Source: Bacteroidales bacterium (GTDB lineage: Bacteria > Bacteroidota > Bacteroidia > Bacteroidales > GCA-2748055). From it: a stretch of DNA of 64,000 nt. The stretch covers positions 89,519 to 153,518 of the forward strand of contig JAFGWU010000061.1 in NCBI GenBank assembly GCA_016936975.1, given 5' to 3'. A program made the position numbers and the translations under genes. Below, in pieces: positions 6,710 through 35,261 of this stretch. The notes beneath the pieces are model-generated. The model had not been told where the DNA came from. It searched no databases and was given only the letters and a program-made list of their open reading frames with translations. Position 1 is the stretch's first letter. Every line of letters starts with the position of its first letter.

Positions 6710-9340
6710 TTAATGCTCAATTATGATTTTCCTGATAAACACATAACGGTTGTTCATCACTTTTACTGCGTATATTCCGGAAGGTTGATTTCCCAGTTCG
6801 AAAGTTGTCTTCAGAAGCGATGACCGGTTTCCGAACCGTTCGTTAACCAGGATCTTCCCGGCAGGATCGATCATCTGAACCAATACATCCCCTTCTCCTT
6901 CCACCTGCCATTCAATGGTGATCCTGCCCTCAGACGGATTGGGATATATCCGGATCCCGCCATCCCCGGCGTCGATGATGCCTGTCGACATATTTTTCCC
7001 CAGCTGGATGACCGAAACGGTATCCGACACCCCTTGGGTGCCCATGGCGATGATGGCGGCCGACCGTATGAAATCATAGGGGTTGGTGAAATAGAATACC
7101 TTTATCATGCTATCATCCGTTTTGGTGGCAATCAGCCACGAAACATTGTCCGTGACGGTCCAGTCAACGTTGGAAGCAACGTTGAAGGTGGTCGAATCCG
7201 ATTGAGCGCCAACGTTCCGGATGCCGGGAGAAACCTCCAGGTAAGCCGGGGCCGCTGCCTGTGTCACCGTAACCGTTTCCGAAACACCTCCCTCTCCTTC
7301 TGCCGTGAGGGCGGCAGTTCTTGCAACGGCGAAATAGTTGGTCTCAAAGGATACGATGATGGTACTTTCATTGGCTTTTACAGCAGTCAGCCAGTCTGCG
7401 TCATCACCGACCATCCAGGTCACATTGGTGCTTACCGTGAAAATGTCGGAGCCCGCTTCAAAACCCACGTCCAGGTGATTGGGTGCGATGTTGAGATAAG
7501 CCGGGGCCCCTGCCTGGGTTACCTGAACCGTTTCCGAAACGCCTTCTGCTCCTTCTGCCGTAATGTTGGCGGTTCTTTCTTCAGTGGAATAGTTCGTCTC
7601 ATAGGATACGATGATGGTGTTTTCATTGGTTTTGACAGCGGTCAGCCAGGGTGCGTCATCAGAAACCTCCCAGGAGACGTTGGAGCTGACCGAGAACAGT
7701 CCGGAGCCCGATTCATAACCTGCGTTAATGCTGTTGGGAGAGACGTCGAGAAAAGCCGGGCCCCTGTCCTGGATGACCATGGCAGTGTCTGACAGTCCCT
7801 CGGGTCCTGTGGCAATGACCAGGCCCGTTCTGGGGGTGATGGTGCCGTTTTCATCATACGATACCCCGATGGTGCTTTCATCGATTTTGACCGCCGAAAG
7901 CCAGGGGACATCCTCGATGACTTCCCATTTCACGTTTGCCTTTACGCTGAGATGATCTGAACCGGCTTCGTAATATACTTCAAGGCTGTCCGGAAAGATC
8001 TTCAGGTATTTATCCGGAATAATGGGGGTCCATTGCACACTCAGTGTATATCCGGTGCAGGTAAATTCATTCATGCGGGAATAAACCCGGATGTAATAAT
8101 AGCCGGCAGAATCCAGGGAATAGAGAACGGTGTCAGTACCCTGGTGGCCTGAAGAGGGTATCGGCGCACCGGAGTCATCGGTTAAATCACAGTTAAAATC
8201 ATCCGGGGGAGCGGGCAAACTGACGGCCAGAGCTCCGGCCGCTGTCACATCCAGCCTGTAAATATCCATATCGGCCGGACTGTGGAGCGTGGCTGACACG
8301 GAACGGGAACAGGCTGTGGTGTCCAGCGGATTAAACACCGTGTCGGTGGCTGTTTCCAGCGAGTCGTTCGGCTCATAGGGATCCGGACATTCGGGGATCA
8401 CTGTGATTAAAGGTTCTTTAAAATAAATGGTATTATTCTCTTCATTAACTTCCTTTACGGTATCCCGGTAATCAGCCAGGCACCCGACATAATAAGTTCC
8501 CTCCGGTATGACGGGATGAACTTCGGTTACATCGGCTTTCAGGGTGTCGTCGATATAGGTGCCTGCCGGCAGATTGGGCACAGTGTGCTCGGCAATCAGA
8601 TAATCGGAGTTATCAACGATGGTATCCGCGGACAGAAAATAACCGATATGAAATTCACCGGACTCCGCCTCTTCTCTATTGCTGACCCTGACTGAAATAC
8701 TGACCTGGTTTCCGGAAACAGACAATTCGCTTAAACGTTGATCGAACATTAAATCGGGCAGTGGATAGGTAAGTATCAGGGTCGGATTGTTTAAGATAAT
8801 TTCATTTTTCTTGCTGCTCCAGGATGACGGTGCTTCAGGGTTTGCCCGGAAGGAGAATCCAACCTCCGTTCTCCCGATCAAATCGGCAGGCGACAGGGCG
8901 AACTGTTTTTCGGAATTTTTCGAAATCCTGTCCTGGTAGACATCTCCTTCCAACCACTTCCAGTGTCCGTCATCGGTTGAAGATCCGAAATTTTCGGTAT
9001 AGAAATCCGTCCAGGACCTGTCAACGATATAACATTCCACGTAATCGAGCAAATTGCTCCAATCGGAAAGATCCCTGACTTCAATGGAAAGGGTCGCGGA
9101 TGTAAATTCTCTTTTCTGCAGGGAATCCGGGATATCAAACCATGCAAATGCTCTCTTCCGGACACTTGAAAAAACAGTTCCGTCATATCCGACAATCATA
9201 TCCAGGGAGATGGTTTCAAGGCCCGCTATGGTCACATAGCCGGTTTTCTCCGTATTCAGCGTATCTGTCTGACCATGGGAGCAGATTCCCGTCCACCACA
9301 GAAAGAGGATCCATGGCAGTATCCTGACTATTATTTTCAT
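6710..9340 (-). CDS. Secreted multidomain protein: DNRLRE-like N-terminus, CARDB-like region, four BACON-type domains, T9SS type A sorting domain
   Basis: Repeated about 85-aa units ending GVSETVxVTQ / GxSDTxxVIQ; C-term IYPNPSEGRITIEW...GIYAVKVMNNRYVFIRKIIIE. Start set at the internal Met with signal peptide MKIIVRILPWILFL. Confidence 0.85.
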   Translation of the reverse strand: MKIIVRILPWILFLWWTGICSHGQTDTLNTEKTGYVTIAGLETISLDMIVGYDGTVFSSVRKRAFAWFDIPDSLQKREFTSATLSIEVRDLSDWSNLLDYVECYIVDRSWTDFYTENFGSSTDDGHWKWLEGDVYQDRISKNSEKQFALSPADLIGRTEVGFSFRANPEAPSSWSSKKNEIILNNPTLILTYPLPDLMFDQRLSELSVSGNQVSISVRVSNREEAESGEFHIGYFLSADTIVDNSDYLIAEHTVPNLPAGTYIDDTLKADVTEVHPVIPEGTYYVGCLADYRDTVKEVNEENNTIYFKEPLITVIPECPDPYEPNDSLETATDTVFNPLDTTACSRSVSATLHSPADMDIYRLDVTAAGALAVSLPAPPDDFNCDLTDDSGAPIPSSGHQGTDTVLYSLDSAGYYYIRVYSRMNEFTCTGYTLSVQWTPIIPDKYLKIFPDSLEVYYEAGSDHLSVKANVKWEVIEDVPWLSAVKIDESTIGVSYDENGTITPRTGLVIATGPEGLSDTAMVIQDRGPAFLDVSPNSINAGYESGSGLFSVSSNVSWEVSDDAPWLTAVKTNENTIIVSYETNYSTEERTANITAEGAEGVSETVQVTQAGAPAYLNIAPNHLDVGFEAGSDIFTVSTNVTWMVGDDADWLTAVKANESTIIVSFETNYFAVARTAALTAEGEGGVSETVTVTQAAAPAYLEVSPGIRNVGAQSDSTTFNVASNVDWTVTDNVSWLIATKTDDSMIKVFYFTNPYDFIRSAAIIAMGTQGVSDTVSVIQLGKNMSTGIIDAGDGGIRIYPNPSEGRITIEWQVEGEGDVLVQMIDPAGKILVNERFGNRSSLLKTTFELGNQPSGIYAVKVMNNRYVFIRKIIIEH

Positions 9341-27251: not shown

Positions 27252-30200
27252 ATGAAAAGAAAGTATCTACTCGGATTATGGACCATCGCGGCCCTTGCGG
27301 GCTTTCTGTGGTCGTCGGCAGTGTTCGGACAGGCGACCCTGAAACACTCCTACACCTTTGAAGACGGTACGGCCAATGATGTGGTCGGCACCGCTCATGG
27401 AACCATCATTGGAGGCACCATATCAGATGGCGTTTACACCGCCGGTACCAACGGTGATATTATTGAATTGCCCGGACCTGATATAGCGATCAATACCTAC
27501 TCTGCCTTAACGATAGAAGCCTATGTTGTCGGCAGTGAAAATGCCGCCACCAATTCGATGCTCTTCTATATGGGGGGATCGGTTAATAATCTTGGGGCCT
27601 ATGGATTTTTCCTGACCCCATGGCACTGGCGGAATGGTACCCAGGCGGGTATTAGTACGGTAAACGAGAGCCAACCCTGGAATGGTGAAAGTTATGTGCT
27701 GGCAACGGAAAACACTTTAAGAACGGCCGGCATGCATCATGCTGTTGTCATTATCAATTCTACGGATATTATCATGTACCTGGATGCACAGCTGATTGGC
27801 ACAACTTCTCTGGCCGAACAGGGGAACAGCATCTCAGCCTTATCAAATGATTTTGCCTGGATTGGCCGCGGAGGATATACCAGTGATCCAACGTGGATTG
27901 GCTCGCTTGACAAGTTCGATATTTATGAGGGGGAGCTCGACCGGGGCATCATTGTGCAGCACGCCAGTGATTTCCTGGGTATTCCCATGGGGGATGCAAC
28001 CCTTTCCTCCATCACCACCAGCAAAGGGGAAGTTGAACCTGAATTTGATCCCGAAACGCTGGAATATGAACTCTGGGTTCCCTACGGAATAACCACCGTC
28101 GATATCGATGTCGAACCCACTGTGTCAGGGGTAATCATTGAAATGTACGACGGACTGGGGAACGTCATTCCTGAAGATGGCGTGGTAAGCTGGAACATCG
28201 AGGACGAAGGAATCGATGTGGAGATTCTCGTAACCGCCCTGGACGGGGCCACCCAGATCTCATATTTCCTCTCCATCTTCAACGAACCGTCGAATGAGGT
28301 TGCCAACCTGTCTGACATTCAGTTTTCAGCCGGTTCCCTGACCACGGATTTTGATCCCGATACCCTTCATTACGTTGCCATTGTTCCCTACGGGAGCACC
28401 TCGGTTGACGTGACGGGTGTCCCGGTCTGGGAAGGAGCCACCGTAACCGGAGACGGCACCATTACACTCACCGAAGGAACGGGGAGCGCCACCATTGTCG
28501 TAACCTCCGAGAATGGTGCGAATACGAAAACCTATACGGTCGATATTTTTGTTACCAGGTTCACGACAGGAAAAGATTTCTACATCCTGAATGAAGCCTC
28601 CAGCGCAAGCTTTGATCCCGGCCTGGTTGTCGGAGAGGAGGCGGATACTTATATCTACCTCACTTTCCCTGAAAAGGATAATCCTTCACAATTGTTCCAG
28701 TTTGAGGAGAGTGGTGTAGAAGGACAATATTTTCTGAAGAACAAGCTGAATCATTACCTGGCACTCGTGCCGGCGCCGGTTCCCGGAAGTGAGGACCAGG
28801 ACTGGAACCTGGAAATGGTGGAAACCCTCAGAAATAACCTTGACAGCTGCCGGTTTGTTCTGAATGAATTCGAACCCGGGAGATTCAGGGTTCAGGCTGT
28901 TGCCAGGTTTCCCCTGAATCATTATGATATGGGGCCCAATTCAATCAGTGTCGGCCAGCGGCTCTTTTCCGATAAATGGCCGGACAATGCCCTGGCGACC
29001 TGGAGCCTCGAGTTTCCGGAAGATGTGATACCTCCTTATGATACTTACCTGGATACGCTGTACCTGGATGTCGCAGGTTTAAGTCCGGATTTTGCATTCT
29101 ACACAACAAATTATACTGTGACACTTCCGGTTGGCACCACCAGCATGACCGTTACTGCCATACCCAATGACCCGACTTCCACTGTAACCGGTACGGGGGT
29201 CATCGATGTATCAGACGGCCAGGGTATGGTAACCATTACCGTTACAGCCTCCGAACCGGGCTATACCCGCGATTATTTCATCCGCTACCAGGTTGACTCA
29301 CCGCTTACCCTGAAGCATTCCTACACCTTTGCCGACGGGACCGCACAGGACCAGGAGGGGGATGTGGACGGCGTGGTACACGGAGGAACCATCACCGAGG
29401 GGATATTCACATCCGCCATCGAAGGTGACTACATCAGCTTCTCCGGAGAAGAGCTGGCACTGAATACCTACCCCTCAATCACCCTGGAGGCTTATGTGAC
29501 CACCGGTGCCAATGCCGGCTGGACCATGCTGGCATACTTTGGCGGCCAGAGCGGAAGCCACAGCTACTGGATGTCCATAGCACGGAACGATGATGTGAGC
29601 CGGACGGCCCTGGATATTAACGGAGGAGATGAGGATGGGGTGAATGGCCTTGAACCCGGACCCGGCGAATCGCACCACTACGTGAGCGTCCTCACCAATG
29701 ATACCATTTATTGGTATGTCGACGGTGTTCTGACCGGTAAGATGGGATTGCGCCCGACCCATGTGATCAGCGAAATCAGCCCGGCGGGAGCCTGGCTGGG
29801 CTTCGGCGGATGGAACGACCCGACCTGGATCGGATCCGTCCTGGAGTTTAATATATACGCCGGACAGATGGATGCCCAGACCGTTGCCCTCCGCTCAGTT
29901 AATTTCCCGCTGGAAGATGCCACCTCGGATGCCACCCTCTCCGACCTGATGGTCGACGGTGTGACGGTGGACGATTTTGTATCGTATAACCTGAGCTACG
30001 ATGTGGACATCTCCGGAGGAACAACCGTGGTGCCTGCTGTAACCGCAACGGCTACCAATGCCAATGCAACCGTGGTGGTTACACCTGCTGCTGAGCTGCC
30101 CGGGACCACCACTGTGGTTGTGACAGCCCAGGACGGGGAAACAACCGTCACCTATTCGGTTAATTTCATCCCCGGGGTATCCGATATTGCCACACTTGCG

Positions 30201-30683
30201 GACCTTACCGTTGATGGAACGACAGTTGAAGGGTTCGATCCGGAGGATTATTCTTATGATGTGACCCTGCCCTACGGTACAACCACGGTTCCGACAGTGG
30301 CCGGTACACCCACGGATGCCAATGCCTCTGTGGTAGTGACCCCGGCCTCCTCATTGCCGGGTACCACCAGTGTGGTTGTTACGGCAGAGGATGGAACAAC
30401 TAAGAAGACCTATTCGGTCAATTTCGAATTGGAGACCTCCGTTGAAGCACCGGAAAGCTTCAGGGTAAACGTTTACCCGACCGTCTCCGACGGCACCTTC
30501 AGGGTGGTGACTTCCGGCGGGTTGTATACCATATCGGTATATGATATCAGCGGCATAAAGGTCCTTCAGAAAACCGGTGAGGCCAATGAGCAAATCATCA
30601 CCGTTAAGAATGCCGGGATGTATATCGTGAAGGTGGAATCTGAAGGAGCATCCAGGGTCTTTAAAGTGTTTAAGACACACTAA
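27252..30683 (+). CDS. Secreted protein with two LamG-like domains, cadherin-like beta-sandwich repeats and T9SS type A sorting domain
   Basis: TLKHSYTFEDGTANDVVGTAHG... repeated as TLKHSYTFADGTAQDQEGDVDG; repeated TLSDLMVDGVTVDDF/TLADLTVDGTTVEGF units; C-term FRVNVYPTVSDGTFRVV...GMYIVKVESEGASRVFKVFK. Confidence 0.85.
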   Translation: MKRKYLLGLWTIAALAGFLWSSAVFGQATLKHSYTFEDGTANDVVGTAHGTIIGGTISDGVYTAGTNGDIIELPGPDIAINTYSALTIEAYVVGSENAATNSMLFYMGGSVNNLGAYGFFLTPWHWRNGTQAGISTVNESQPWNGESYVLATENTLRTAGMHHAVVIINSTDIIMYLDAQLIGTTSLAEQGNSISALSNDFAWIGRGGYTSDPTWIGSLDKFDIYEGELDRGIIVQHASDFLGIPMGDATLSSITTSKGEVEPEFDPETLEYELWVPYGITTVDIDVEPTVSGVIIEMYDGLGNVIPEDGVVSWNIEDEGIDVEILVTALDGATQISYFLSIFNEPSNEVANLSDIQFSAGSLTTDFDPDTLHYVAIVPYGSTSVDVTGVPVWEGATVTGDGTITLTEGTGSATIVVTSENGANTKTYTVDIFVTRFTTGKDFYILNEASSASFDPGLVVGEEADTYIYLTFPEKDNPSQLFQFEESGVEGQYFLKNKLNHYLALVPAPVPGSEDQDWNLEMVETLRNNLDSCRFVLNEFEPGRFRVQAVARFPLNHYDMGPNSISVGQRLFSDKWPDNALATWSLEFPEDVIPPYDTYLDTLYLDVAGLSPDFAFYTTNYTVTLPVGTTSMTVTAIPNDPTSTVTGTGVIDVSDGQGMVTITVTASEPGYTRDYFIRYQVDSPLTLKHSYTFADGTAQDQEGDVDGVVHGGTITEGIFTSAIEGDYISFSGEELALNTYPSITLEAYVTTGANAGWTMLAYFGGQSGSHSYWMSIARNDDVSRTALDINGGDEDGVNGLEPGPGESHHYVSVLTNDTIYWYVDGVLTGKMGLRPTHVISEISPAGAWLGFGGWNDPTWIGSVLEFNIYAGQMDAQTVALRSVNFPLEDATSDATLSDLMVDGVTVDDFVSYNLSYDVDISGGTTVVPAVTATATNANATVVVTPAAELPGTTTVVVTAQDGETTVTYSVNFIPGVSDIATLADLTVDGTTVEGFDPEDYSYDVTLPYGTTTVPTVAGTPTDANASVVVTPASSLPGTTSVVVTAEDGTTKKTYSVNFELETSVEAPESFRVNVYPTVSDGTFRVVTSGGLYTISVYDISGIKVLQKTGEANEQIITVKNAGMYIVKVESEGASRVFKVFKTH

Positions 30684-30733: not shown

Positions 30734-30737
30734 CACG

Positions 30738-30770
30738 GGGTTGCCGGAGGTCTTTCGGCAGCCCTTTTTT
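30738..30770 (+). terminator. Second terminator-like hairpin
   Basis: GGGTTGCCG / CGGCAGCCC stem (one G-T) followed by TTTTTT. Confidence 0.75.
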
Positions 30771-30871
30771 AACGGATGCAGGCCCAGGTTTCTTTGTGTT
30801 TCCCTGTGTAATTTACTCCCTGATCAGTTTCTCTCTTTAGGTGTGCCGGCAGGGTATGAGAAATGATCAGG

Positions 30872-31564
30872 TCCCATGGTGATATGGAAACCTTCCGTTC
30901 CGGGTTATTAACAATCAGATCCGGCTTGTTAACAATCAGAGGTGATTTGGGACCAATCAGATGTGACCCGGAGCCAATCAGAGGCGGTTTGGAACCAATC
31001 AGAGGCGACCCGGAACCAATTAGATACGACCCGGAACCAGTCAGATGCGATCCGGAACCAATCAGGTGACATTTTTTCACGGTACAGGGTCATCTGGAGG
31101 GGTGACGGAGCGGGTTATTAACAATACGCAGTCGCCGGATCATGTTACGGAGCGATTTGTTAACAATTTGAGGTCATTTGGAACCAATCAGGTGTGATTT
31201 GGGACCAATCAGATGCGGTTTGCGGCCAATCAGATGCGATCTGCAACCAATCAGAAGCGATTTGCAGTCGGTCAGGGACGATCCGGAACCCTTCAGGTCT
31301 CATTTTGTATTGGTACGGGGTGACTTTATTAACTGACGGAGCGGGTTGTTAACAATACAAAGCCACCGGATCATGTTACGGAGTGATTTGTTAACATTTT
31401 GACGTCATTTGGGAACCATCCGGCCTCATTTGAAAACACTCTGAGGTCATTTTGCAATCCTTCGGAGTCGTTTGACATCCCTCTGAGATCCCCGGGATAT
31501 CCTCCGGGTGGATTTGCAAACCATTCGAAGCCGTTTGATGTGACTTCCGGGGCATTTATCATTC
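30872..31564. repeat. Diverged 21-bp tandem repeat array, about 33 units, phase-locked without indels, with a 231-bp higher-order period
   Basis: Manual phasing at positions = 2 mod 21; units such as ATCAGAGGCGACCCGGAACCA, ATCAGATGCGATCTGCAACCA, CTCTGAGGTCATTTTGCAATC. Confidence 0.9.
31371..31562 (-). CDS. Possible small heptapeptide-repeat protein encoded by the 21-bp array
   Basis: Asn at residues 3,10,17,31,38,45,52,59 (GFEWFAN ... DLRGMSN DSEGLQN DLRVFSN EAGWFPN DVKMLTN); ATG directly follows the GH43 stop (TGAATG). Confidence 0.35.
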   Translation of the reverse strand: MINAPEVTSNGFEWFANPPGGYPGDLRGMSNDSEGLQNDLRVFSNEAGWFPNDVKMLTNHSVT

Positions 31565-34500
31565 AACGGTAGTACCGGTTGTTCAGGCTGAGGATCTTCC
31601 TGGCTCTTACCCTGCCGTTCGTATAGTTCTCCACCACGATATATATTCCCGGATCGTGCCTCAGGGCTTCGGGAGAGACCGGCTGCCCTGAGAGGGAGTA
31701 ATAACGGGTATTAGCAATATCCCACTCATCAAATGAGGGATCCGGACGGGTTTCCGGGAAAACGGTACCGGTTATGTCATTGCTGAAAAGAATGGTGTCG
31801 ATTCCGCGGTGGGTGGGCACCACCTGCTGTATGGAGCCGTTTGTATTAAACCGGAGCCGGTCGATACACACTTCCCGGTGGTACCCGGGCCCGTTATCCA
31901 GGTAGTTCCTGTTTACCCGGTGATACACGATAAACCACTCATCCCGTCCCGGGATCTGCAGAACCGAATTATGCCCCGTCCCGTAAATGAGGCTGTCGGT
32001 CTCCTGTCGGATCACAATGGGACTGCCGGCCACAGTGATTGGTCCGGTGGGGGAATCCGAGGTTCCGTATGCGACATGGTAATTGGGTGATCCCGTATCG
32101 TCCACCGACCAGAGGAAGTAGTAGGTGCCGTTCCGGCAGAAGACGGTTGTCCCTTCGCGGTATGCATAGGTTTGCAATGTTCCTCCCTGGGGGGTAATCA
32201 CGTCAGTGGAGGCCGGTTTGATGTTCAGCATATTCTCCTCCAGCTCCGATACCGCCATGAACCCGTTTCCCCAGTAGAAATAGCTTTTCCCCGACAGCGG
32301 ATCGGTGAACACGTCGCCGTCTATAATCTGTCCGCCGGAAACCCCATCGGGAAGCGCATCGATCATCGGGGTGCCCGAGTCGTGGAACGGACCGGCGGGG
32401 TGGTCGGACACGGCGACCCCGATCTTCTTCCCGCCGCTCTCCCCGCTGAAGTAGAAATAGTAGATATAGTCGTTTTCCGATATTTTCCGCTCCTCAATGG
32501 CGGGGGCCCAGGCGTTCCCTGTGGCCCAGGGCACCTGGTCGCCGCTCAGATCGAGAATAGTGCCATCATTGGTCCAGTTGACCAGGTCGGGTGAGGAGAA
32601 GACATCAAAGCTGTAGCCGCCCCATCCGGGATAGCCGTCGGTGGTCGGATAGATGTAGAACCGCCCGGTTTTTTCGGAATAGAGTATGTCGGGGTCCGCA
32701 TGAAAACCGGGGAGCACCGGGTTGACCCGTATAACCGGACTGACGGCGTAGGTTTTCGTTGTGCCGTTCAGGGTGAAGGAGTAGGAAACGGGTCCGGACG
32801 TGAAATCGGGGGCGCCTTCCGGCGTGATCTGTGTCCCGGCCGTGGCGTAAAAACAGGGATCAAAGGCAGTGAGGTCGGTGCCATAATAAACGGGGATGGT
32901 AATCTCGCGGGCTGTCTCATTCACGGTGATTCCCTCCGGCCGGATATTTTTGTTTCGTGCCCCGACGGTGAGTTCCGAGAGGGCGGCGGAGGGAAATGCC
33001 TCTGCGAGCCGGCCGGCTTCTTCCTTTGAGATGGCCATGGTGGTCCCGTGGCGGGCATCCATTGAATAGTTGTCGAGTACGTAGGCAAAGGATTCAAGGT
33101 CGGATGAACTGCAGAACTGGTAATGCCCGGCTCCGTAGCAGTCGTACATCATGATCCACTCATCGGAGTTGATGAGCCTGAATACGCCAACCCCCTCGAC
33201 GGCCTCGGAGGTCTGTTCCAGGTTTCCCGTGGATTCGCCCCACTGTGATCCGGGAGGGGCGCCGTCTCGGGCGGTAAGGGTTTTGGAGGTTACTTTGGCG
33301 ATCCCCCCGGTTCCTTCATTCTTAAAAAAGAGGTGGTAAAGGCTGTCCGCCTCATTTAACACGATATCCCCGTCGATCGTGGCCGATCCCCGGTCGAAGA
33401 GGAACTGCGGGACACTTTCGAGATCGGTGAAATCGTCATTCGCATAGGCGTAGTGGATCTGATCATACGGACACTTGCCGTCGCTGGTAAGCAGTGAGAA
33501 ATAGACCATGTATTTCCCGGCCCCGGGATCATAGATCGTCTGCGGGGCCCACACCCTTAATACGTTTGCCCATTCCGCCGGCCACCGGGTCGGGAAGTGG
33601 ATCGCGGAGCTGGTCCAGTTCACCAGGTCATTGGATTTCAACAGCACAATGCCCCGGTTGCTTGTCCATCCTTCACTTGATTTCATATCGGTCACGACCA
33701 TATAGAACGTTTCCCCGTCCTCCCCCCTCAGGATATGTGGGTCGCGCACCGCCTTCTTCAGGGCGATGTCGGCGGAGTTAATGACCGGGTTCCCGTTATT
33801 CAGCGGCGTGTAGTGCAGTCCGTCATTACTGAGGGCGAACCGGATCTGCTCTTCATACTGGGAATTGCCGGTGAAGTAGGTAAAGAGGTAGGCCGACCGG
33901 TTCTCCTCCTCGGCGATATAAACCGTAAAATCCCTTGAGGCGGAGGCCGATCCCCGCGTGGCCGTGGCGGTGAGGATTGCCTTTTTCTTCCCTTCGCCGT
34001 AGGGTGACAATTTCAGGATGCGTCCCACTGCATTGATATAATCGGGGGAATCCGTGGACCATAGGATTTGGGATCCTTCGGCTGTTTTGTGGGGAAGATG
34101 CAATTGTGACCGGGCATTATTTATATTACCCCCTATGGTTAGTCCGGCCAGGTCCGTTTCCACGGCGGTACTATCCGTGCAGAGGGGCAGAACCGTCACC
34201 TTAAACGATTTTGTAACGGAATAACCGTTCCGGCTCAGGGTGGCCGTGAGGGTCACCTCCACGGGATCTTCTCCTGATGCGGGCCTGTGGACTATTCCCT
34301 CCGGGGAGATGATGCCGGGAGCGGAGCTCTTCCATTCGACCGACACCCCGTTTCCAAGCTGATTGGGGAGGCTGATCATGGAACGGATGGCATCGGCATT
34401 TTCAATGTTAAGGGTTGCCACGGCCTCATGCACCACCACGCTGTCGACCATGTAATTCAGGATGGGGAGGTCGCTGCAGAGGGCGATGACCTGTGACCGG

Positions 34501-35261
34501 TCGAGGGCACCGCTGTATATTTTAAAATTATCGTAAAGGGCGTTCTTCAGATAAACATCACTCCGGTAACAGGAGCGGCCCAGGAAATTATAGGAGGTTG
34601 CGTCCAGTTCGGCCGGACGGATGGTCACCGTGCCGCTGGCAACCAGGGTGCTGTCGATGTAGATGGAGCCGTCCGAATCCTGCTGTGTATAGGTCAGCGT
34701 CACCCAGCGGCCTTTTGTGAAAGGCCGGCGGGCATTTACCATCGACTCCGCCGAATAGCCGGTTTTCGAAATGGCATAGCGGGTGGAGATCGCCGAAAAA
34801 AACATGTTTCCGTTGGCATCGGAGAGCATGTTATCGGAATTGGCGAAGGTCCAGATGAAATTTCCGTTGGCAGTGATGGGGGTACTTTCCGGGATAAAGA
34901 GGGTGGAGGAGACGGAAAAACTTTCGAGCGCGGCGATCAGCTCCCCGAACGCGGGGGAGAAGTTGAAATAGCCGTTCCCGTCTCCCAGGCTAAGGACATC
35001 AGAGGGTCCGTACTTCACCAGGACGGCACCATTATGGAGTGTGCCGGTATAGGTGCCCGATTGATCCGTTGCGGAGCTGAAATCGAACTCTGCCAGGAGG
35101 CTTGTGGCCTGGGAACCGCTTTTTATACTGGGGTGCTCTTCAGTCTTTTCTTCTGAGAGCGCCGGATTCAGGGCGTGCAGGGAGCAGGTGCCATATAAAA
35201 GCAGGATTAAAGGGATGCAATAACTACAGGCGGTTTTCACTCTGTTCATAAAATGGATCAT
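31563..35261 (-). CDS. Bimodular GH43-type glycosidase with N-terminal LamG-like and Ig-like domains
   Basis: Two five-bladed-propeller signatures: AVRDPHILRGEDGETFYMVVTD...WAPQTIYDPGAGKYMVYFS and GFHADPDILYSEKTGRFYIYPTTDG...WAPAIEERKISENDYIYYFYFSG. Confidence 0.88.
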   Translation of the reverse strand: MIHFMNRVKTACSYCIPLILLLYGTCSLHALNPALSEEKTEEHPSIKSGSQATSLLAEFDFSSATDQSGTYTGTLHNGAVLVKYGPSDVLSLGDGNGYFNFSPAFGELIAALESFSVSSTLFIPESTPITANGNFIWTFANSDNMLSDANGNMFFSAISTRYAISKTGYSAESMVNARRPFTKGRWVTLTYTQQDSDGSIYIDSTLVASGTVTIRPAELDATSYNFLGRSCYRSDVYLKNALYDNFKIYSGALDRSQVIALCSDLPILNYMVDSVVVHEAVATLNIENADAIRSMISLPNQLGNGVSVEWKSSAPGIISPEGIVHRPASGEDPVEVTLTATLSRNGYSVTKSFKVTVLPLCTDSTAVETDLAGLTIGGNINNARSQLHLPHKTAEGSQILWSTDSPDYINAVGRILKLSPYGEGKKKAILTATATRGSASASRDFTVYIAEEENRSAYLFTYFTGNSQYEEQIRFALSNDGLHYTPLNNGNPVINSADIALKKAVRDPHILRGEDGETFYMVVTDMKSSEGWTSNRGIVLLKSNDLVNWTSSAIHFPTRWPAEWANVLRVWAPQTIYDPGAGKYMVYFSLLTSDGKCPYDQIHYAYANDDFTDLESVPQFLFDRGSATIDGDIVLNEADSLYHLFFKNEGTGGIAKVTSKTLTARDGAPPGSQWGESTGNLEQTSEAVEGVGVFRLINSDEWIMMYDCYGAGHYQFCSSSDLESFAYVLDNYSMDARHGTTMAISKEEAGRLAEAFPSAALSELTVGARNKNIRPEGITVNETAREITIPVYYGTDLTAFDPCFYATAGTQITPEGAPDFTSGPVSYSFTLNGTTKTYAVSPVIRVNPVLPGFHADPDILYSEKTGRFYIYPTTDGYPGWGGYSFDVFSSPDLVNWTNDGTILDLSGDQVPWATGNAWAPAIEERKISENDYIYYFYFSGESGGKKIGVAVSDHPAGPFHDSGTPMIDALPDGVSGGQIIDGDVFTDPLSGKSYFYWGNGFMAVSELEENMLNIKPASTDVITPQGGTLQTYAYREGTTVFCRNGTYYFLWSVDDTGSPNYHVAYGTSDSPTGPITVAGSPIVIRQETDSLIYGTGHNSVLQIPGRDEWFIVYHRVNRNYLDNGPGYHREVCIDRLRFNTNGSIQQVVPTHRGIDTILFSNDITGTVFPETRPDPSFDEWDIANTRYYSLSGQPVSPEALRHDPGIYIVVENYTNGRVRARKILSLNNRYYR

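Follow-up and report, generated by a model that had tools for sequence, protein, structure and literature searches.

The tandem array that lies between two convergent genes in the window, the 64,000-nucleotide stretch of DNA from an uncultured Bacteroidales bacterium analysed here, is best explained as a diverged member of a dispersed, noncoding family of spacerless 21-bp minisatellites that is specific to its genome. The rhythm of this family is probably a property of the DNA itself, and the array is a candidate platform for protein binding; we put the probability of this reading at roughly 0.6. It is supported by the recurrence of the array in its own genome with a common skeleton and phase, by a start motif and a hinge unit that are shared without conserved flanks, and by equally phase-locked, unrelated arrays in three further genomes (G055, G343, L140). 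The features of the locus are as follows.

27252–30683, plus strand: LamG flanking gene; domain matches identify a 1143-aa Laminin_G_3, Cadherin-like, Por_Secre_tail (T9SS) protein.
30737–30765, plus strand: intrinsic terminator of the LamG gene, a 13-pair stem followed by a T run, outside and upstream of the array.
30856–31564, plus strand (set by the match to sister arrays): whole phase-locked 21-bp tandem array, a start unit and 33 units, delimited by autocorrelation and profile placement.
30856–30871, plus strand: array start motif ATGAGAAATGATCAGG, homologous to sister-array starts; the sequence upstream is not in common.
30914–31144, plus strand: first copy of an 11-unit (231-bp) segmental duplication, with 63 differences to the second copy and no net indel.
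31066–31080, plus strand: hinge-like unit GTGACATTTTTTCAC, a degenerate counterpart of the sister-array unit TGACATTnTGTCA, recognised by eye from the phase alignment.
31145–31375, plus strand: second copy of the 231-bp duplication, placed by comparison with the first.
31297–31311, plus strand: second hinge-like unit GTCTCATTTTGTATT, more decayed, 11 units beyond the first.
31397–31564, plus strand: most diverged part of the array, a tail that reaches the convergent GH43 gene at its stop codon.
31563–35261, minus strand: convergent glycosidase gene, 1232 aa, with two GH43 domain matches.

An earlier note on this DNA had described 33 consecutive, diverged and indel-free 21-bp units at 30872–31564, and this description was confirmed, the run having no spacers. 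When each unit was placed with a leave-one-out profile at offsets from -10 to +10, offset 0 was best for 32 of the 33 units, and only the first unit (30872) fitted another offset better. The autocorrelation that had been proposed as a check gave a peak beyond chance at lag 21 (0.55), with 0.56 at lag 42 and 0.615 at lag 231, a distance of 11 units. Composition shuffles of the array never exceeded 0.335, and elsewhere in the window 693-bp stretches reached at most 0.40 at any lag between 12 and 60. TRF recovered the array as fragments only. The true start is 30856 rather than 30872, at the motif ATGAGAAATGATCAGG that is common to the sister arrays, and the array ends at the glycosidase stop codon (31563). 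Its units differ from each other at up to about 50% of their bases, and the two halves of the 231-bp duplication differ at 63 sites (27% divergence) with zero net indels. The window array is an old, worn member of its repeat family.

Domain matches also confirmed the convergent LamG and GH43 genes that had been named on either side. The array starts 173 bp past the end of the LamG/T9SS gene, beyond the terminator of that gene. As this terminator precedes the array, the array is not obviously a 3' UTR of the LamG gene. For the glycosidase gene, no separate terminator was found ahead of the array. An inverted repeat of 14 bp, matching at 13 positions, brackets the array (30847–30860 and 31604–31617), one of its arms lying in the glycosidase coding region; since the sister arrays lack it, it is probably due to chance. 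Elsewhere in the window, at 7226–7772, there is a tandem repeat with a period of 255 bp (about two copies, 77% match), probably a domain duplication within a gene.

A profile search of the own genome found the array at many loci. Based on pattern and profile searches and on the stretches around the matches, the family occupies 19 places, namely five complete arrays (the window, C98, C100, C1 and C19) and fourteen that are cut by contig ends (C44, C22, C8, both ends of C25, C102, C66, C11, C20, C31, C85, C48, C32 and C9); two contig-end pieces can belong to one array, so that the number of distinct arrays lies between about 12 and 19. Judged by the ORF calls, all 19 places are intergenic. All arrays of the family carry the skeleton nnATTTGannACnnTCnGnnn, worn to varying degrees, in the same 21-bp register. 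Strict 21-bp phase was seen in every array examined, the sole frame-breaking change noticed being a 1-bp difference at the start of C1. A younger subfamily, composed of TCATCGGATGACCTCACGATC and GTTTTTGATGACCTTCACCCG with a period of 42 bp, is near-identical at many loci, and the assembly is therefore broken there. Because so many copies are near-identical, the family appears to have spread recently. Within arrays, blocks of units are duplicated in whole-unit multiples (42, 105–147 and 231 bp).

The arrays begin in similar ways, with ATGACAAAAGATCAGG in C100 and C22, ATGACAAATGATCAGG in C98 and ATGACAAAAGATCAGC in C44. The sequence ATGACAAAAGATCAGGTTCCGATC, or a near variant of it, is common to the starts of C100, C22, C44 and C98 and is diverged in C1 and in the window. 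Palindromic start units are found instead in C20 (GTGACATTGTGTCAC) and C85 (ATGACATTACGTGAT), and a palindromic unit resembling TGACA-N3-TGTCA stands at most array starts. The hinge unit TGACATTnTGTCA also occurs inside C100, C44 and, as GTGTCA variants, C1, and four times in C19, with 4–6 ordinary units between its copies. Apart from the start motif at the boundary, no common sequence was detected in the 300 bp flanking the arrays on either side.

The copies occur in mixed orientation, and several adjoin the 5' ends of genes. An association with glycosidase or T9SS genes, which the earlier note had suggested checking, was not upheld, and no class of neighbouring gene is consistent. Other arrays lie beside genes for malic enzyme, an S9 peptidase, a DUF4230 protein, a universal stress protein, formate-THF ligase and a CAAX protease, names assigned mostly by eye from ORF translations. 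On contig C1 the DUF4230 gene runs without a stop into the array tail (L042:1231-2385), which may add about 170 residues to the C terminus of the protein. Synteny with the best GlnRS relative (L108) is broken at C98.

Twenty-one base pairs correspond to two turns of B-DNA. The earlier remarks on a constant unit length and on two helical turns held up, as phase is kept in every array examined and the diverged copies show raised similarity at lags 10 and 11 bp. This similarity (taken modulo 21) is significant in the window (p 0.008), C98 (p 0.02) and C19 (p 0.012), p-values that are not independent because the arrays of one genome are related. C1 and C100 show a weaker signal and the 42-bp subfamily none, and a 10.5-bp sub-rhythm was not significant in C20, C48, C25e, L140 or L206. 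The conserved cores ATTTG (positions 3–7) and TTCnG (positions 14–18) are 10–11 bp apart and hence lie on one face of B-DNA. With a unit of two full turns and both cores on one helix face, the rhythm is probably maintained at the DNA level. Across the family, spacing by whole helical turns stays constant despite the divergence of the units. In bacteria, indels generally arise at 0.05–0.1 of the frequency of substitutions. At this ratio, the approximately 78 corrected substitutions of the 231-bp duplication should be accompanied by about 3–8 indels, and none is seen net, which argues that selection or homogenisation keeps the phase. The weak 10.5-bp sub-rhythm and the phase kept despite 27% divergence point to a DNA-level constraint or to homogenisation, and the latter, acting between units, could keep the phase without selection.

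Two other structural properties were considered. Curvature predicted with wedge parameters exceeded that of shuffles in five arrays (z 2–7), with no such excess in C19, and was not raised against column-permuted 21-bp arrays. Intrinsic curvature was therefore rejected as the main property. The imperfect dyad that had been pointed out in many units was not substantiated, as complementarity within units was at chance level against column-permuted arrays, both in the window (p = 0.53) and in five sister arrays (p 0.31–0.90). A palindromic operator array was rejected for the window family on the latter values, dyad symmetry of the unit being found instead in the G055 array (L206), L175 and L148.

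How such a family would arise and persist can be outlined. Arrays may grow and shrink by whole units through slippage or unequal recombination, and may be copied between intergenic sites by recombination or by some transposase. An array could then act as a multivalent platform on which copies of a DNA-binding or nucleoid protein would sit side by side along one face of the DNA. If the array has a role, this platform is the most likely one, and we consider it about as likely as no function.

The absence of function is the strongest alternative, with odds slightly short of even. Here the same dispersed family would be neutral: whole units would be gained and lost by slippage or unequal exchange, homogenisation would purge units that are out of phase, and the arrays would be spread by recombination or by a transposase acting in trans. 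Restriction to one species, variable unit number, mixed orientation and the lack of neighbour genes in common are all in agreement with this, as is the near-identical 42-bp subfamily at many loci. A precedent exists in the same order, where the BrickBuilt element of Porphyromonas gingivalis is a dispersed minisatellite specific to its species (PMC4596501). However, at 27% divergence between the halves of the duplication and up to about 50% between units, homogenisation should have stopped, and yet there is no net indel where about 3–8 were expected. In addition, the G343 array holds its 21-bp phase across three unrelated unit sequences.

The search of the whole genome and of related genomes, proposed earlier for the 21-mer profile, gave a divided result: many loci were found in the own genome, and no match was obtained in 27 other genomes of the taxonomic family or, with stricter filters, in 294 other genomes of the order. 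Plasmids, phages and viral contigs gave no match either, and an origin of the family from these was rejected. The exact hinge pattern was absent from a collection of genome contigs, from which records of the own genome may be left out. At the level of the phylum, one of 394 other genomes matched the family profile (G343, E 4e-6). The array found there (L264:2807-3310, G343:C44) comprises 24 units that keep 21-bp phase across three unrelated unit types, one of which, GCATCTGGTGAACTTCTGGGG, resembles the window family; most of its frames contain stops. A Tannerella sp. MAG carries a phase-locked 21-bp intergenic array directly 3' of a gene (L140:393-700, unit CAAATAAAAAAAGGGATCCCG), the minus-strand start of which, ATGACGCTAAGGG, closely resembles the window family's start motif. 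In a further Bacteroidales genome, G055, perfectly palindromic units TTTCGTCCCGGGACGAAA or TTTCGCCCCGGGGCGAAA recur every 42 bp with diverged units interleaved, in dispersed intergenic arrays locked to a 21/42-bp phase. They are found at four loci, L206:7200-7540 (G055:C4), L233:4300-4640 (G055:C9), L234 (G055:C1 142082-142270) and L235 (G055:C5 163970-164200), and the C4 copy sits between convergent genes. The arrays of these three Bacteroidota genomes are unrelated to the window family.

It is conceivable, if rather doubtful, that Bacteroidota carry an undescribed kind of element, consisting of genome-specific intergenic two-turn (21-bp) arrays with unrelated units, each read along its helical face by a protein of its own that would organise or silence the DNA. 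The rhythm, and not the sequence, would then be conserved. The unit types considered for this proposal are direct 10.5-bp sub-repeats in the present genome, palindromes in G055 and mixed units in G343. An excess of 21–22 bp periods among Bacteroidales intergenic arrays was not shown in 1.6 Mb of stretches from relatives, where counts were too small and multiples of 7 bp overlap. Arrays of 22-bp palindromic units, about two helical turns, were observed in other Bacteroidales (L175:12302-12455, AACTAACGTTAGTT; L148:142-251, CTAAATTnATTTA). Intergenic arrays of 7-bp units such as GGTTTCG and TCAGGGT, with a period of 14, occur across Bacteroidales (L042:1060-1280, L105:7460-7560, L117:4046-4130) and form a class separate from the 21-bp arrays.

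Among described elements, BrickBuilt is the closest known kind. It is a dispersed, intergenic, species-restricted and spacerless 23-nt minisatellite within a MITE of P. gingivalis, and includes a leader, a tail and small terminal inverted repeats (PMC4596501). The family described here resembles it in belonging to the order Bacteroidales, in its short, imperfect, spacerless unit (21 instead of 23 nt), in its dispersal over about 19 intergenic copies, and in being species-restricted, variable in unit number and not convincingly translated. In contrast to BrickBuilt, a start motif of about 25 bp is all that its arrays have in common, with no leader or tail found in the 300-bp flanks, and terminal inverted repeats are lacking in C98, C100, C1 and C19. 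Unit length and letters differ as well, and the two-turn phase is kept even where units differ at up to half their bases. Since the match does not extend to leader, tail and terminal inverted repeats, the family is not a member of BrickBuilt. That the array is nevertheless the inside of a comparable non-autonomous transposon, mobilised by a transposase in trans, is unlikely. Dispersed intergenic copies, a sharp common start and the 14-bp inverted repeat (13 matches) around the window array would fit such an element. However, part of this repeat falls within the glycosidase gene, C98, C100, C1 and C19 offer no equivalent of it, and no conserved leader or tail was found in 300 bp on either side.

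Other repeat arrays are more distant. Direct-repeat arrays of the heptamer TAACTGA, of unknown function, occur in Beggiatoaceae, Cyanobacteria and some Bacteroidetes, with up to 43 copies in some members of the latter two groups (PMC4679880). They likewise are dispersed and intergenic, but consist of a conserved 7-mer that in one genome stands mostly just before start codons (PMC4679880), whereas the 21-mer of the family here is diverged and occupies no set position with respect to start codons. The 21-bp family is found at 19 chromosomal intergenic places, and no Rep or Par gene was noticed beside those arrays whose neighbours were read. In this it differs from iteron and partition-site arrays, for example those of plasmid replication origins, which are direct repeats of about 17–22 bp spaced by whole helical turns and are single origin or centromere loci adjoining a Rep or Par gene.

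Protein coding was considered in all six frames and rejected because of stops, the absence of a start codon in some copies and dN/dS values near 1. The specific proposal concerns frame +0, in which the arrays would encode a protein of helical heptads (MTKDQVPIRFDNVPIRF.., FDDLQLA..), decayed in the window copy but still intact in C98 and C100. This frame is open through C98 (209 aa ORF), C100 (172 aa) and C19 (188 aa), and the array start coincides with an ATG in C98, C100, C44 and C22. Stops in frame +0 are also rarer than in column-shuffled arrays (0 against 4.1 expected in C98, 1 against 4.4 in C1), a depletion for which the noncoding reading does not account. Against this, the window array has nine stops in frame +0, early stops occur in C44 and C1, and C48 contains stops too. 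A start codon is missing from C20 and C85, where stops lie 3 bp and 24 bp upstream of the array, respectively. Most information resides at third codon positions (positions 15, 18 and 3), and dN/dS is 0.69–2.1 (near or above 1 in C98, C19 and the window), which is not the lowest of the frames. Pfam gave no match above the cut-off. A decaying heptapeptide gene, one of the roles first proposed for the array, is hence disfavoured and quite improbable.

A structured RNA in the 3' UTR of a flanking gene, also among the first proposals, is scarcely credible: the glycosidase transcript may by position run into the array, no separate terminator having been found, but neither strand of the window array folds better than shuffles (z 0.35 and 0.38), sister arrays give z -1.55 (C100) and -0.89 (C98), the LamG terminator stands before the array, 5' gene ends adjoin several sister arrays, and an Rfam search matched no family to the array.

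Dispersed arrays of short units are hard to assemble and easily overlooked; in the present assembly of 102 contigs, fourteen contig ends fall within this one repeat family. If slippage alone is at work, a minisatellite can diverge widely and yet hold its phase, a point that matters for calling and dating repeat families. If the rhythm reflects protein binding, the arrays would be natural multivalent binding platforms across the chromosome, and the binding protein would be retrievable by a pull-down with array DNA.
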